DNA of 37,487 nucleotides from Planctomycetota bacterium (GTDB lineage Bacteria > Planctomycetota > Planctomycetia > Pirellulales > Pirellulaceae), in NCBI GenBank assembly GCA_027619595.1, contig JAQCHP010000038.1, positions 1 through 37,487 of the forward strand. The letters are read 5' to 3'. Numbering within the stretch: position 1 is the first letter of the stretch; each line of letters begins with the position of its first letter. The notes under the pieces are model-generated. The model had not been told where the DNA came from, ran no database searches, and worked only from the letters and a program-made list of their open reading frames with translations. The position numbers were made by a program, and so were the translations under genes. This document shows positions 31,644 to 36,006 of the stretch, in pieces.

Positions 31644-32643
31644 TTAGGGCACAACCAGCGTTGCCACCTGATCGCTCACACCAATCCGTGCGATGGTCCC
31701 GCTAGAAAACACGAGAAAGTCGCTTTCAATGCCGTCGGAGAAAATCACACCCCCGGATGGCATAAGCGATTCCACGACCAGTTGCTCACCCTCGTCCAAC
31801 ATCCCCGCGACGAGGTTGGCTTTCGAGTGCCGGCTCACGAACGGCCCAAAGTAATTGACGTGCATCCCAACCGATTCGTGGTCGTTCGTCGATCGCATGT
31901 CCCAACATTTTTGCCACACCAGCAGTCATATTAAATACGCTGGAGAGCCAGCCGGTGGAACCCGCACCCGTGGAAACTAGAATACCGCTCGACGACTGAG
32001 GCTCGCTTACGCCGTCTGCTTCTAACATGTAACGCGCAGAGACGTGAGTTTGACTTCCAACGAACAAATCGTTAAAGGCAAGTAGGCGTTGACCGTCATT
32101 GAGAGCCACCTGCGCCAGCGTTACTGCACGCTGCTTGAAACGACGATCGAGCACTCGCTTTACTGCATGACTCGCCTGGTCCAAAGCGAATGGAAGCAGC
32201 ACGCCGTCAATTTTTTGGGGATCGGGATTTACACCCACGATTGGAACATGCCCCACATACTTTGCCACGTTTGCCACCAGGCCATTTTGCCCGATGACAA
32301 CCACTGCCTCACAGCCACCAAATTCGAAATTGGGCACGAACTCGCGATCGACGACAGTCACTGTAAGGTCTAGCAATTCCAGTTGCCGCAAAATGGTTTC
32401 GACAGCGAACCGAAACGCCGTGTCTTCACGTTCGTACTCCGCAAAATCGGCCTCGGGCGCCGGCTGCTGGATGGGATCCGATCGTTTTTCAGCGTTTCTC
32501 TGCGATGAGACCGCCGCTTGTTGCCCACTTTGTGCCAAGCCCAGCACGAACCTCGCTTGTCCAACAGTGCCCCAACGCGCCCGCAGCTTCTTTAAACGTG
32601 TGGGCATCGTCACGACGGCAACGGTGGGCCGAACCTGTCGCAT
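31644..32643 (-). pseudogene. NAD-kinase-like protein, frameshifted
   Basis: The first frame (from ATG 32643) has VVVIGQNGLVANVAKYVGHVPIVGVNPDPQKIDGVLLPF, NDLFVGSQTHVSARYML and SSGILVSTGAGSTGW, the fold of ATP-NAD kinases. The second frame (to 31644) has GEQLVVESLMPSGGVIFSDGIESDFLVFSSGTIARIGV, the family C-terminus. The break is at 31834-31844, where a single CCGTTCGTGAG (minus strand) is read in both frames as VRE and PFVS. Two tandem copies would give the expected VREPFVSRHS, so loss of one 11-base copy explains the frameshift. The catalytic-loop aspartate of GGDG/GQDG is Asn here. The start lies three bases after the stop of the SPFH gene, so they were one operon. Confidence 0.82.
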
Positions 32644-32646
32644 TGA

Positions 32647-33609
32647 CTAATCCTCGTCTTTGGTTCGCATTAACGTTGCGAGCAAATCGGGCGAAATATT
32701 GAGTTCGCCGATCTTTTCAGCACTTTCCGCCAGTTGCCGGAAGGCGAGGGCAATATTGAGCTTTGCATCGCCGCCGCCCGTGGCTGCCATGATCGTCCGC
32801 CAATCGACTCCCTTAAGCGGCTCCAAGAGTTGGCCCAACGCCTGTGCCCGCGACTCGGATTCTTTTTTTTCGTTGCCCACTCGGTGGTCCACCAACATCG
32901 ATCGTTGCTCTTCTACAGCGATATCCGCAGCCATCTGCGTTTCACGCTTCTGGCGTTTCTTCTGTTCCACCGCAATCTCCGTATTCAATTCATTTTCCTT
33001 GATCGTCCGTTCCTGCAGCACGGCCGCGTTACGGCGTGTATAAACGGCCTCGTCGGCCTTCCGTAATAATTCTTCGCGTGCTTCGGCCTGAAGGGCCTTC
33101 GACATCTCGGGTGTTGGCTTGATCGAGAGAATTGATAATCCCATGATTTCAATACCCAACAGGGAAACCACTTCCGCTTGTCGAAGTCCAGTAAGCATCT
33201 CGCCAACTAAGAGATCGCTGCCCACGAGTACATCGCGTAGTGGTCTTTTTTGCATGAAAGATCTGGCCGAACTTTACGCTGCGTGTACAAGCCGATCGCT
33301 GAGCTTCGTAGGGTCGTCGGAACGATAACGGCCGCGGCCATCGATACTGTAGTCCAGCGATATGGCCAAACGTTGCGGATCAGTAACCCGATACGTTAAC
33401 TCCGCCTGTACCGTGGCCTCCTGAAAATCGGCCGTCGCTTCGTTAAAAACGAGTGGTACATCGACACTGGCAAGCGACACCTGCACGATTTCAGCGGTTG
33501 GTGCAAAATACCAAAATGTGAGCCCAGCCCCGTGCTGCTTCAATTTTCCCCCTACGTATTTCATCACGTATGTAGTGGGAGGCGATTTCAGATAGCGAAA
33601 TCCAAGCAT
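32647..33609 (-). pseudogene. SPFH/band-7 domain protein, interrupted by a stop codon
   Basis: The frame from ATG 33609 (behind AGGGAAG) reads through a band-7-type beta domain (GAGLTFWYFAPTAEIVQVSLASVDVPLVFNE, then ATVQAELTYRVTDPQRL and LSDRLVHAA). It meets TAA at 33274-33276 and continues in the same frame. The rest has the helical and coiled-coil part (MSKALQAEAREELLRKADEAVYTRRNAAVLQERTIKENELNTEIAVEQKKRQKRETQMAADIAVEEQR). A CAA-to-TAA change is the simplest explanation. Full length would be about 320 residues. SPFH proteins form membrane-associated oligomeric scaffolds; no transmembrane anchor is obvious here. A shorter product might start at ATG 33255, which has no good ribosome-binding site. 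Confidence 0.82.
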
Positions 33610-34062
33610 AATTGTCTTCCCTATATCCTATTCGTGGCCGGCTAATTCCACCCTTCATCTCAAGGATAGCCTACGCAAGCACAGCCTGTCGCCCAAAGCG
33701 ATTATTCGGAATGTAACACCTAATTTACGAGTGCGGAACTCCCACCGACCGTCGGACGACCGCCCTCCAACTGTGGCAGGAGTTGCAGCAGATTCTCGGC
33801 TCCGAAGGCTGGACCTGCCGTGACTGCCGGCACCTCATCGCGTCGGCGCCTCTTCATTGGTCGCTTTCTGCGACGGGAGTTCCCCACGTTCAAATCTCCA
33901 TGTATCCTGGCTTGAATTTGGCGTAGTCCAGATAACGGTTTCAAAGCTACACCGAGACTCTCGGAGGAAACGCCTCCGTTCGGAGTTTGTTCGCATTTTC
34001 TCGCACTCGGGAAAATGCGTGCTGAATCGGTCACCGTTGAGAATGGAAAGAAGTAGGCCACT
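33610..34062. other. Intergenic region between SPFH and uvsE genes
   Basis: No gene with a start codon. A plus-strand frame free of stops (33717-33926) reads YECGTPTDRRTTALQLWQEL, then LQQILGSEGWTCRDCRHLI, which looks protein-like but has no start and no known family. Two inverted repeats precede uvsE: CGGAGG/CCTCCG at 33962-33978 and CGCATTTTC/GAAAATGCG at 33992-34019. Confidence 0.4.
33992..34019 (+). promoter_or_regulatory. Perfect inverted repeat upstream of uvsE
   Basis: CGCATTTTC and GAAAATGCG form a perfect 9-bp palindrome around a 10-base spacer. The right arm ends 43 bases before the uvsE-like start codon. There is no T-tract. It could be an operator for damage-dependent control; its sequence does not match an SOS box that I recognise. 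Confidence 0.4.
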
Positions 34063-35214
34063 ATGCGACTTGGACTCTGCTGTCAGTTTATGCAACAGCC
34101 GATTAAGTTCCGCACCACAACGGCAACTGCAGTTGCCAAGATGGATCGGCCCGATGCGTTGGCAAAACTAAGCCGACTCTGCCTGGAAAACGCGGAATCG
34201 CTATTCGCTGCATTGCAGTTCTGCGCGGCGAATGGAATTGGCTGTTTTCGCATTAACAGTCAAATTCTTCCCATAAAAACGCATCCCAGCTGCGGCTACT
34301 CACTGGGTGACTTGCCCGCAGCCAAGGAAATCCTTGATCGATTCCAAGCATGCCGAGCGTTTGCGAAAGAGCATTCGCTCCGCACCTGTTTTCACCCAGA
34401 CCAATTCGTGGTGCTTAATTCCCCCAGACCCGATGTCGTGGAGAAATCGGTGCAAGAACTGGAGTACCAGGCGGAGGTTGCGGAATGGGTCGGGGCTGAC
34501 GTTGTGAATATCCACGGTGGCGGGGTCTATGGAAACAAGGAAAAAGCACTTGCCGATTTTGCACGCAACCTCGATAGACTTTCACGCCGAGTCCGAAGTC
34601 GACTTACCGTCGAAAACGACGACAAGTCCTTTACGCCGGCTGACCTGTTGCCCATCTGTCAGGAAAGTGGAATCCCATTGGTCTATGACGTCCACCATCA
34701 TCGTTGTAATCCCGACGGAATGACAATCGAGCAAGCCACGCGCAAGGCCATGAAGACATGGGACCGAGAACCAATGTTTCACATCTCAAGCCCAAGAGCC
34801 GGATGGAGCGGTCCCCAGCCTGCGCGGCATCACGATTTCATTGACATCCAAGATTTTCCAGACTGTTGGCGAAGAAAAAAGGTCACGGTCGAGGTGGAAG
34901 CCAAGGCCAAAGAAATTGCGGTGCAACGTTTGCTCGGTGACTTGAAATCCTGCCAAGAACCGGCCGCAACCTGGTTTGTCTACATGCTGCGGTGTGCCGA
35001 CGGCTCACTCTACACAGGTATCAGCAATGACGTGCAACGACGTGTCAAACAGCACAACTCCGGCACAGCGTCGCGTTATACCCGAGGTCGTTTGCCTGTC
35101 GTCCTGCTCTATCAGGAGCCGCAGTGCAGCCAAGGGGCTGCCCTGCGAAGGGAACTGGAGATCAAAGCCCTTTCTCGAACCGTGAAAGAATCGATGGTAG
35201 ATGCGCTACAATAA
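34063..35214 (+). CDS. uvsE: UV-damage endonuclease (UvsE/UVDE) fused to GIY-YIG nuclease domain
   Basis: This is a single 383-residue frame. Residues 1-295 are a complete UVDE TIM barrel that nicks DNA 5' to UV lesions. The N-terminus is MRLGLCCQF...PIKFRTTTA. Candidate metal ligands are H111 (FHPDQFVVLNSP), H151 (NIHGGGVYGNK), E184 (TVENDD), D209 and H212 (YDVHHHR), H240 (MFHISSPRAGW) and E279 (VEAKAKE). Residues 303-372 are a complete GIY-YIG domain of the YhbQ/UPF0213 type: WFVYMLRCADGSLYTGISND, RRVKQHNSG, YTRGRLPVVLLYQE and the catalytic-type Glu in LRRELEIKAL. The linker is only about ten residues. No stop or ambiguous frame separates them. Coupling one lesion-specific nickase with a second nuclease would allow a dual cut, but that is inference. 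Confidence 0.92.
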   Translation: MRLGLCCQFMQQPIKFRTTTATAVAKMDRPDALAKLSRLCLENAESLFAALQFCAANGIGCFRINSQILPIKTHPSCGYSLGDLPAAKEILDRFQACRAFAKEHSLRTCFHPDQFVVLNSPRPDVVEKSVQELEYQAEVAEWVGADVVNIHGGGVYGNKEKALADFARNLDRLSRRVRSRLTVENDDKSFTPADLLPICQESGIPLVYDVHHHRCNPDGMTIEQATRKAMKTWDREPMFHISSPRAGWSGPQPARHHDFIDIQDFPDCWRRKKVTVEVEAKAKEIAVQRLLGDLKSCQEPAATWFVYMLRCADGSLYTGISNDVQRRVKQHNSGTASRYTRGRLPVVLLYQEPQCSQGAALRRELEIKALSRTVKESMVDALQ

Positions 35215-35226
35215 ACTCCTAGTGGC

Positions 35227-35568
35227 CTACGAGACACGGGGCGAAAACAACAGCCAAAGTCCGATGCAGACAGACGCGAGCACCAATCCAGCGCCCATCG
35301 CCCCCCAAAAACCGAGTCCTAGACGTTCGGCAATAGCGAGCGGCACGAAGAACGGAAGTCCTAGCGGCACCAAGACCAGCGTCTCTCGTGCCATTTGCGA
35401 CAGGCTTCGCAGATCGTGGTCTCGAAACCACGATGCTCCGAAGGCCAGGATGCTGACCAAAGGCAATGTCAACAACAACGCTCCCAGTCGCGGTGATCGT
35501 CGCGAAATTTCCGAAACGGACAAAATGACAACCAACGGAACTACGACTCGGATGATAATCGAAATCAT
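35227..35568 (-). CDS. DUF3147 family membrane protein
   Basis: The protein has 113 residues with four hydrophobic helices. IIIRVVVPLVVILSVSEISRRSPRLGALLLTLPLVSILAF and the end of the chain, GFWGAMGAGLVLASVCIGLWLL, are typical of DUF3147 inner-membrane proteins, whose function is unknown. ATG 35568 follows AAGGAG by five bases; the longer open frame, by 55 codons, is not family-like. It converges with the UvsE fusion gene (12 bases apart). Confidence 0.88.
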   Translation of the reverse strand: MISIIIRVVVPLVVILSVSEISRRSPRLGALLLTLPLVSILAFGASWFRDHDLRSLSQMARETLVLVPLGLPFFVPLAIAERLGLGFWGAMGAGLVLASVCIGLWLLFSPRVS

Positions 35569-36006
35569 AAGACTCCTTGCGTGCGCAAGTGCGCCCTTAG
35601 GTAACGTACGAAATCCCTGGTGAACTAGCTGGCATCCACTGTCGTCGACGACGGTGATACTTGCGGTTAGAATAACATGCCGACCTAAGAAATGAACCAT
35701 GGCTTGCAATGAACTTCGGGGGCGAGGGAGCATGGGATTTCGGTGGAGTCAATGGTTCTCTGATTGCATTTCTGCGCCGCGCACTTGAGCTGATGAGAAG
35801 TCGCTAATTCGCATTCCTTCGAGATCTGGCTTAGCCCCCTATGAATGCATTGCGGCGCCGCACGACCGCGCTGAAAGCGAATCCGAAAATGTTGTGGGTA
35901 AAGACAAGTGTGGGAAACCCGTCCTCCGGGCTGTGGGAAACAACCGCCTGGGCCTTATACCAGAGACATGTTATTGTGGGACGTCATTTCGAAAGAGGAT
36001 CGTTAA
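35569..36006. other. Intergenic region, divergent promoters likely
   Basis: No supported gene between the divergent DUF3147 and TMEM175 genes. Short open frames have no recognisable features. I see no clear repeat or terminator. Confidence 0.4.

Follow-up and report, generated by a model that had tools for sequence, protein, structure and literature searches.

A fusion of UV-damage endonuclease and GIY-YIG domains in planctomycetes, a candidate bifunctional repair nuclease

Does a single planctomycete gene encode both a UV-damage endonuclease (UVDE) and a second nuclease, and if so, could the two act on the same lesion? The question arises from a locus in a 37,487-nucleotide stretch of DNA from a Planctomycetota bacterium of the family Pirellulaceae (assembly GCA_027619595.1, contig JAQCHP010000038.1), the whole of which is referred to here as the window. 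The gene occupies positions 34,063 to 35,214 of the plus strand, begins with ATG, and encodes 383 amino acids followed by a TAA stop codon at 35,212–35,214; an in-frame TAG at 34,054–34,056 lies three codons ahead of this ATG and limits how far upstream translation could begin, and the open frame amounts to 385 codons. The in-frame fusion read there by the first-pass annotation was borne out, both domains scoring above the Pfam cut-offs within this one frame. The first, a UVDE TIM barrel (residues 1–290; 34,063–34,932), matches PF03851 (UvdE) over residues 4–268 (E 1e-62; 212.3 bits, cut-off 24) and, in an NCBIfam scan of the 383-residue protein, the UvsE equivalog TIGR00629 over residues 11–295 (182.8 bits against 124.45), with a second UvsE model, NF002640, falling below its own cut-off (166.3 against 456). 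The second, a GIY-YIG domain (residues 304–378; 34,972–35,196), matches PF01541 over residues 304–373 (E 4.2e-14, 53.1 bits against 22.6). Between them lies a junction (residues 291–303; 34,933–34,971) that comprises the end of the C-terminal helix of UVDE and a short linker. The fusion is thus genuine, a complete UVDE barrel joined to a complete GIY-YIG domain. Since the nearest long frames on either side (33,274–33,609 and 35,227–35,733) both lie on the minus strand, the fused gene appears to stand alone, and it is the sole match in a search of the window's own genome. Further upstream on the minus strand, a Band 7/SPFH gene (32,647–33,609) apparently lies in two frames, possibly through a frameshift or contig error: 33,274–33,609 matches Band_7, and 32,647–33,255, which has no Pfam match, resembles its continuation by eye. 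Likewise, visual inspection suggests that two overlapping frames at 31,644–32,643 (minus strand) belong to a single broken NAD-kinase-like gene, with no Pfam match at E 0.001.

Recurrence across planctomycete genomes, which the first-pass annotation had named as support, was found when that check was run. A full-length fusion without a stop is present in 3 of 98 near relatives and, in wider genome sets, in 8 of 396 from the order, 5 of 392 from the phylum, and 25 of 397 from the class (one of which, G950, carries two copies), these sets overlapping and each counting the window's own genome. In a scan of named genomes, 127 stretches matched the search pattern, 117 encode relatives, and 80 were kept; fusions account for 27 of these 80 loci, and in three cases the N-terminus is incomplete. 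By title, 26 of these 27 are planctomycete and one (L068) is labelled only 'bacterium', although titles of metagenome bins (e.g., Kuenenia) may carry wrong labels. The isolates with the fusion include Blastopirellula marina DSM 3645 (L071) and Roseimaritima sediminicola (L074). Altogether, the fusion occupies 39 of the 185 loci collected and is represented by 33 distinct sequences. Solo UVDE and solo GIY-YIG proteins are both widespread in the order, phylum, and class sets. Putatively viral contigs (IMG/VR) yielded three solo UVDEs and no fusion; the three (L186, L187, and L188) are UVDE-only relatives with 60–71% identity.

Both catalytic centres appear complete at the level of individual residues, in agreement with the metal ligands, tyrosine pair, arginine, and glutamate that had been read from the window alone. 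For the barrel, alignment to Thermus thermophilus UVDE fills what we take, by residue number, to be the ligand positions with H74, H111, H151, E184, D209, H212, H240, and H256, and E279 was assigned by its motif and by alignment to a second PDB chain. The numbering used for T. thermophilus is offset from that of the PDB chain by 21 throughout, and in the chain named K229L the residue at position 229 is Leu. Two T. thermophilus residues are replaced: the carboxylated Lys229 corresponds to Met238 in the window protein and Tyr105 to Phe115, and across the fusions the Lys229 position holds Met, Leu, or Val and the Tyr105 position Phe. The core residues of the GIY-YIG domain are Y307, Y317, R327, H331, and E364. 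In the alignment of the 33 distinct fusions, these five and the seven barrel residues H111, H151, E184, D209, H212, H240, and H256 are present in all 33; H74 is found in 32 of the 32 rows that reach its position (one row falls short), E279 in 32 of 33, and G319 of the GIY-YIG domain likewise in 32 of 33, the exception being L099.

The joint itself is compact. Nine residues separate L294, the last conserved Leu of UVDE, from W304, the first Trp of the GIY-YIG domain, close to the linker of about ten residues without a stop first described; the same spacing is three residues in 14 of the 33 fusions, including the Blastopirellula-like ones, and 5 to 11 in the rest. Most UVDE-only homologues terminate within about 30 residues of residue 290, the point at which the fusions enter the GIY-YIG domain. 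An AlphaFold2 model of the fusion, built from 39 aligned sequences, has a mean pLDDT of 85.8 that dips to a mean of 65 over residues 291–300, and its pTM of 0.74 does not fix the relative placement of the two domains. Structure comparison places the predicted barrel with SacUVDE (3tc3, Z 32.4, rmsd 2.4 over 280 residues) and with 4gle (Z 32.0), all matches listed being to the barrel and none bearing on the GIY-YIG fold. A single-sequence model of the GIY-YIG domain alone reached a pLDDT of 60.6 and was set aside.

The two halves have also been maintained to a similar degree. Among the 22 closest pairs, dN/dS ranges from 0.053 to 0.113 for the UVDE half, and it ranges from 0.031 to 0.217 for the GIY-YIG half in the 19 of those pairs with finite dS, the pairs sharing ancestry and hence being non-independent. 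Mean pairwise identity over 528 pairs is 0.737 for UVDE and 0.721 for GIY-YIG. Both halves are under similar purifying selection and, with the catalytic residues retained as well, neither an error nor an inert passenger can account for the fusion.

What kind of nuclease the second half represents bears directly on its possible role. The first-pass annotation had likened it to UvrC and Cho, a likeness that did not hold. A GIY-YIG profile built from 25 domains (20 fused, 5 solo) matches two UPF0213 structures in the PDB (E 8e-23 and 1e-20) and, more weakly, SLX1 (E 0.0011, with a second SLX1 at E 0.95); no UvrC chain appears among its PDB matches up to E 10, and no UvrC model matches the fused protein in the NCBIfam scan up to E 1. 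Membership of the UvrC/Cho group was accordingly rejected. A survey of the superfamily describes the bacterial Slx1 relatives as one cluster marked by the absence of a C-terminal Asn (PMC1564403), and no Asn follows E364 in the window protein, nor is one conserved in the alignments. The RING/PHD finger of eukaryotic Slx1 has no Pfam match up to E 1, and the protein ends 19 residues past E364. Judged from these profile matches and residues, the GIY-YIG half is of the UPF0213/Slx1 type and not of the UvrC/Cho type. Escherichia coli YhbQ and Bacillus subtilis YazA are counted in the Slx1 family, and Slx1-Slx4 acts on simple-Y, 5'-flap, and fork structures (PMC7017083). Because Slx1 cleaves flaps and branched structures, any second cut here is more likely to follow strand displacement than to be made, in the manner of UvrC, on the 3' side in intact duplex. 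Among open-licence papers, we found no activity data for bacterial UPF0213 proteins. A Neisseria relative has reportedly been described as a single-strand-specific nuclease, and no paper on that nuclease was found in the same literature. In another genus (g167), stand-alone GIY-YIG proteins (L160, L161, L162, L163, and L166) carry a different N-terminal part of about 65–70 residues or more, a further indication that domains of this type combine with diverse partners.

Every fused row of the UVDE tree belongs to a single group of 69 rows (33 fused and 36 solo; SH-aLRT 87), in which solo UVDEs are interspersed among fused ones. By a quick method, the fused or solo label changes 16 times within this group, at least four of these changes being forced by well supported branches, and 14 times when the far row L013 is left out. 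A single clade of fused UVDEs was rejected (p 0.0003, L013 excluded). The GIY-YIG tree is poorly resolved and is compatible with a single clade of fused domains (p 0.086, seven long-branch rows excluded). Both trees agree with a history in which the GIY-YIG half was captured once and then lost repeatedly, which may be what happened; repeated gain or transfer is a possible alternative. An origin from two adjacent genes was considered and set aside: among the solo UVDE loci examined for it, a separate partial GIY-YIG match occurs only in L078 and L130, at distances of 2.8 and 3.7 kb.

Broken copies were found in both directions. Of 79 solo loci, two give direct evidence of loss, with a GIY-YIG remnant behind an intact UVDE: L004, which has a stop codon, and L103, which has an internal deletion. 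Conversely, the second and partial matches of the class search revealed an intact GIY-YIG half with a damaged or truncated UVDE half in L189 (a second copy), L190, L196, and L197; in L196, identity to the query is 43% for the UVDE remnant and 65% for the GIY-YIG half. No UVDE remnant with a convincing score precedes the solo GIY-YIG domains at 53 loci, many of which have only about 230 bases upstream. The broken copies suggest that either half can serve on its own, and they thereby weaken the argument for an enzyme that must make two cuts.

The repair setting of the fusion is an ordinary one. All 17 genomes tested for UvrC, eight of which carry the fusion, have a match above the cut-off, and a Pol I-type 5'-3' exonuclease domain occurs in all 17 genomes of a largely overlapping set, of which 10 carry the fusion. 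In genome G000, the UvrC (TIGR00194) matches lie on contigs other than that of the fusion. Replacement of nucleotide excision repair by the fusion is thus unsupported, a missing Pol I-type 5' nuclease is rejected as the reason for it, and the fusion is an addition to ordinary repair. As a side observation, the UvrC proteins of all 17 genomes in the first set are short (e.g., G000:C57:24986-26260), with profile positions of about 235–368 giving way to about 15–20 residues and matches ending near position 540 of 574. A separate UPF0213-type gene was seen in none of the eight fusion genomes searched with PF01541, where every other match is either a UvrC-like gene or, in G134, G148, and G192, short and weak. 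Of the 25 fusion genomes in the class search, 17 yield one match each and 8 yield more, some of these being a separate GIY-YIG; replacement of the solo domain by the fusion, which holds in 8 of 8 genomes of the smaller set, therefore fails as a rule.

How might the two halves work together? UVDE nicks 5' of UV photoproducts and also accepts other lesions (PMC8307549). Our preferred reading, held tentatively and as plausible short of probable, is that of a conserved bifunctional planctomycete repair nuclease in which a UVDE nick would be followed by a tethered GIY-YIG cut of the displaced strand. By analogy with the UVDE family, the barrel would recognise a UV photoproduct and nick directly 5' of it, leaving a 3'-OH, which a polymerase, most likely Pol I, could extend so that the lesion-bearing strand is displaced as a 5' flap. 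The tethered GIY-YIG domain, if it behaves like members of the Slx1/UPF0213 cluster, would then cut the displaced strand 3' of the lesion, and a ligase would seal. Rad2/FEN1 may process the UVDE nick in fission yeast (PMC8620282), and the GIY-YIG half would replace that step in cis. Some observations weigh against this mechanism: with a Pol I-type 5' nuclease and UvrC in every genome tested, there is no obvious call for a second flap cutter, and the solo UVDEs mixed among fused ones, along with the broken one-half copies, speak against tight coupling. A further reading, which we regard as rather doubtful, is a one-protein UV excision nuclease that brackets the lesion between a UVDE cut on its 5' side and an Slx1-type GIY-YIG cut on its 3' side. 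As part of that same doubtful reading, the 3' cut could fall in duplex or on a displaced flap, and the lesion would leave on an oligonucleotide without UvrA, UvrB, or UvrC.

The main rival, a real possibility that we place somewhat below an even chance, holds that both halves are active on separate substrates: the GIY-YIG half may do an ordinary UPF0213 job, such as cutting branched or single-stranded DNA, and the fusion may mainly tie the supply and place of that nuclease to DNA damage. Such a loose partnership would suit halves that are separable in both directions, each of them widespread on its own, and a domain type that also occurs behind a different N-terminal part in another genus; moreover, where no separate UPF0213-type copy accompanies the fusion (8 of 8 genomes), the fused copy may be the sole source of that nuclease. 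It sits less easily with the placement of all fused UVDEs in one tree group, the constant site of the joint, and the short linker, nor does the argument from sole supply extend to the 8 of 25 fusion genomes in the class set with further matches.

A UvrC-like dual incision in intact duplex, in which the GIY-YIG domain would cut at a constant offset on the 3' side of the lesion and UVDE on its 5' side, freeing a short oligonucleotide without a polymerase, is unlikely. Both active sites are intact, and the 3' cut of UvrC is itself made by a GIY-YIG domain (PMC8307549), but the domain considered here is of the UPF0213/SLX1 type. UvrC, moreover, is positioned by UvrB, and no UvrB-like helper is fused here.

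Still less credible is a mobile, promiscuous GIY-YIG domain that became attached and persists with little effect. The superfamily survey allows that many GIY-YIG fusions may reflect domain mobility (PMC1564403), and repeated losses fit the UVDE tree; however, active-site residues kept in 32 to 33 of 33 fusions and strong purifying selection on the domain are hard to reconcile with a passenger. No conserved neighbourhood emerged either, the commonest neighbour cluster occurring at 5 of 25 loci and the next two at three each, with many flanks short; these neighbours are unannotated, so that the counts are silent on mobile elements. Finally, a sequencing or assembly artefact joining two genes through a lost stop codon, a refutation that the first-pass annotation had envisaged, can be dismissed as having a negligible chance, for even if the two frame-broken-looking upstream genes hint at errors in this contig, 33 distinct sequences from isolates and many assemblies read through the joint without a stop.

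To our knowledge, how the damaged strand is removed after a UVDE nick is poorly settled in bacteria. The fused protein, which unites the enzyme that nicks with a candidate second cutter in a single polypeptide and occurs in cultured species, makes the post-nick step directly testable. The fusion also offers a functional handle on bacterial UPF0213 nucleases, and if both cuts were indeed made, it would constitute a very small UV-lesion excision system compared with UvrABC. As first supposed, the fusion does not seem to be a described system: no description of it was found in the titles and opening abstract lines of the matching open-licence papers listed, and the two papers in which UVDE and GIY-YIG occur together are a phage genome paper, with the two as separate genes, and a review. 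The architecture may well be listed, uncommented, in domain databases.

Set beside known systems, the fusion resembles UVDE/UvsE/Uve1 (PF03851, TIGR00629) in its whole TIM barrel, metal ligands, Gln104 equivalent, and SacUVDE fold, and differs in its C-terminal GIY-YIG domain and in the Met and Phe at the Lys229 and Tyr105 positions of T. thermophilus. With UPF0213/YhbQ/YazA, the non-eukaryotic Slx1 cluster, it shares the best PDB sequence matches (1zg2 and 1ywl), the same core residues, and the lack of a conserved C-terminal Asn, whereas the solved UPF0213 structures show free-standing proteins, 96 and 107 residues long, and the domain of the fusion is appended to UVDE. UvrC and Cho belong to the same superfamily (PF01541) and act in lesion excision, a role that is predicted for the fusion; they nevertheless represent another subfamily, the fusion has no second nuclease domain of the UvrC type, and UvrC is encoded separately in all 17 genomes. 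Other repair enzymes have likewise been joined in frame to GIY-YIG domains, namely exonuclease-Cho in Mycobacteria, EndoIII-GIY (MJ0613), and MutS-GIY in plants (PMC1564403), but their partners are different, and the terms UVDE and UV damage are absent from that survey. The closest parallel in proposed order, a UVDE nick followed by a flap nuclease, is the fission-yeast UVDE pathway (UVDER) with Rad2/FEN1 (PMC8620282), in which, unlike the planctomycete fusion, the two activities reside in separate proteins and the flap nuclease is unrelated to GIY-YIG.
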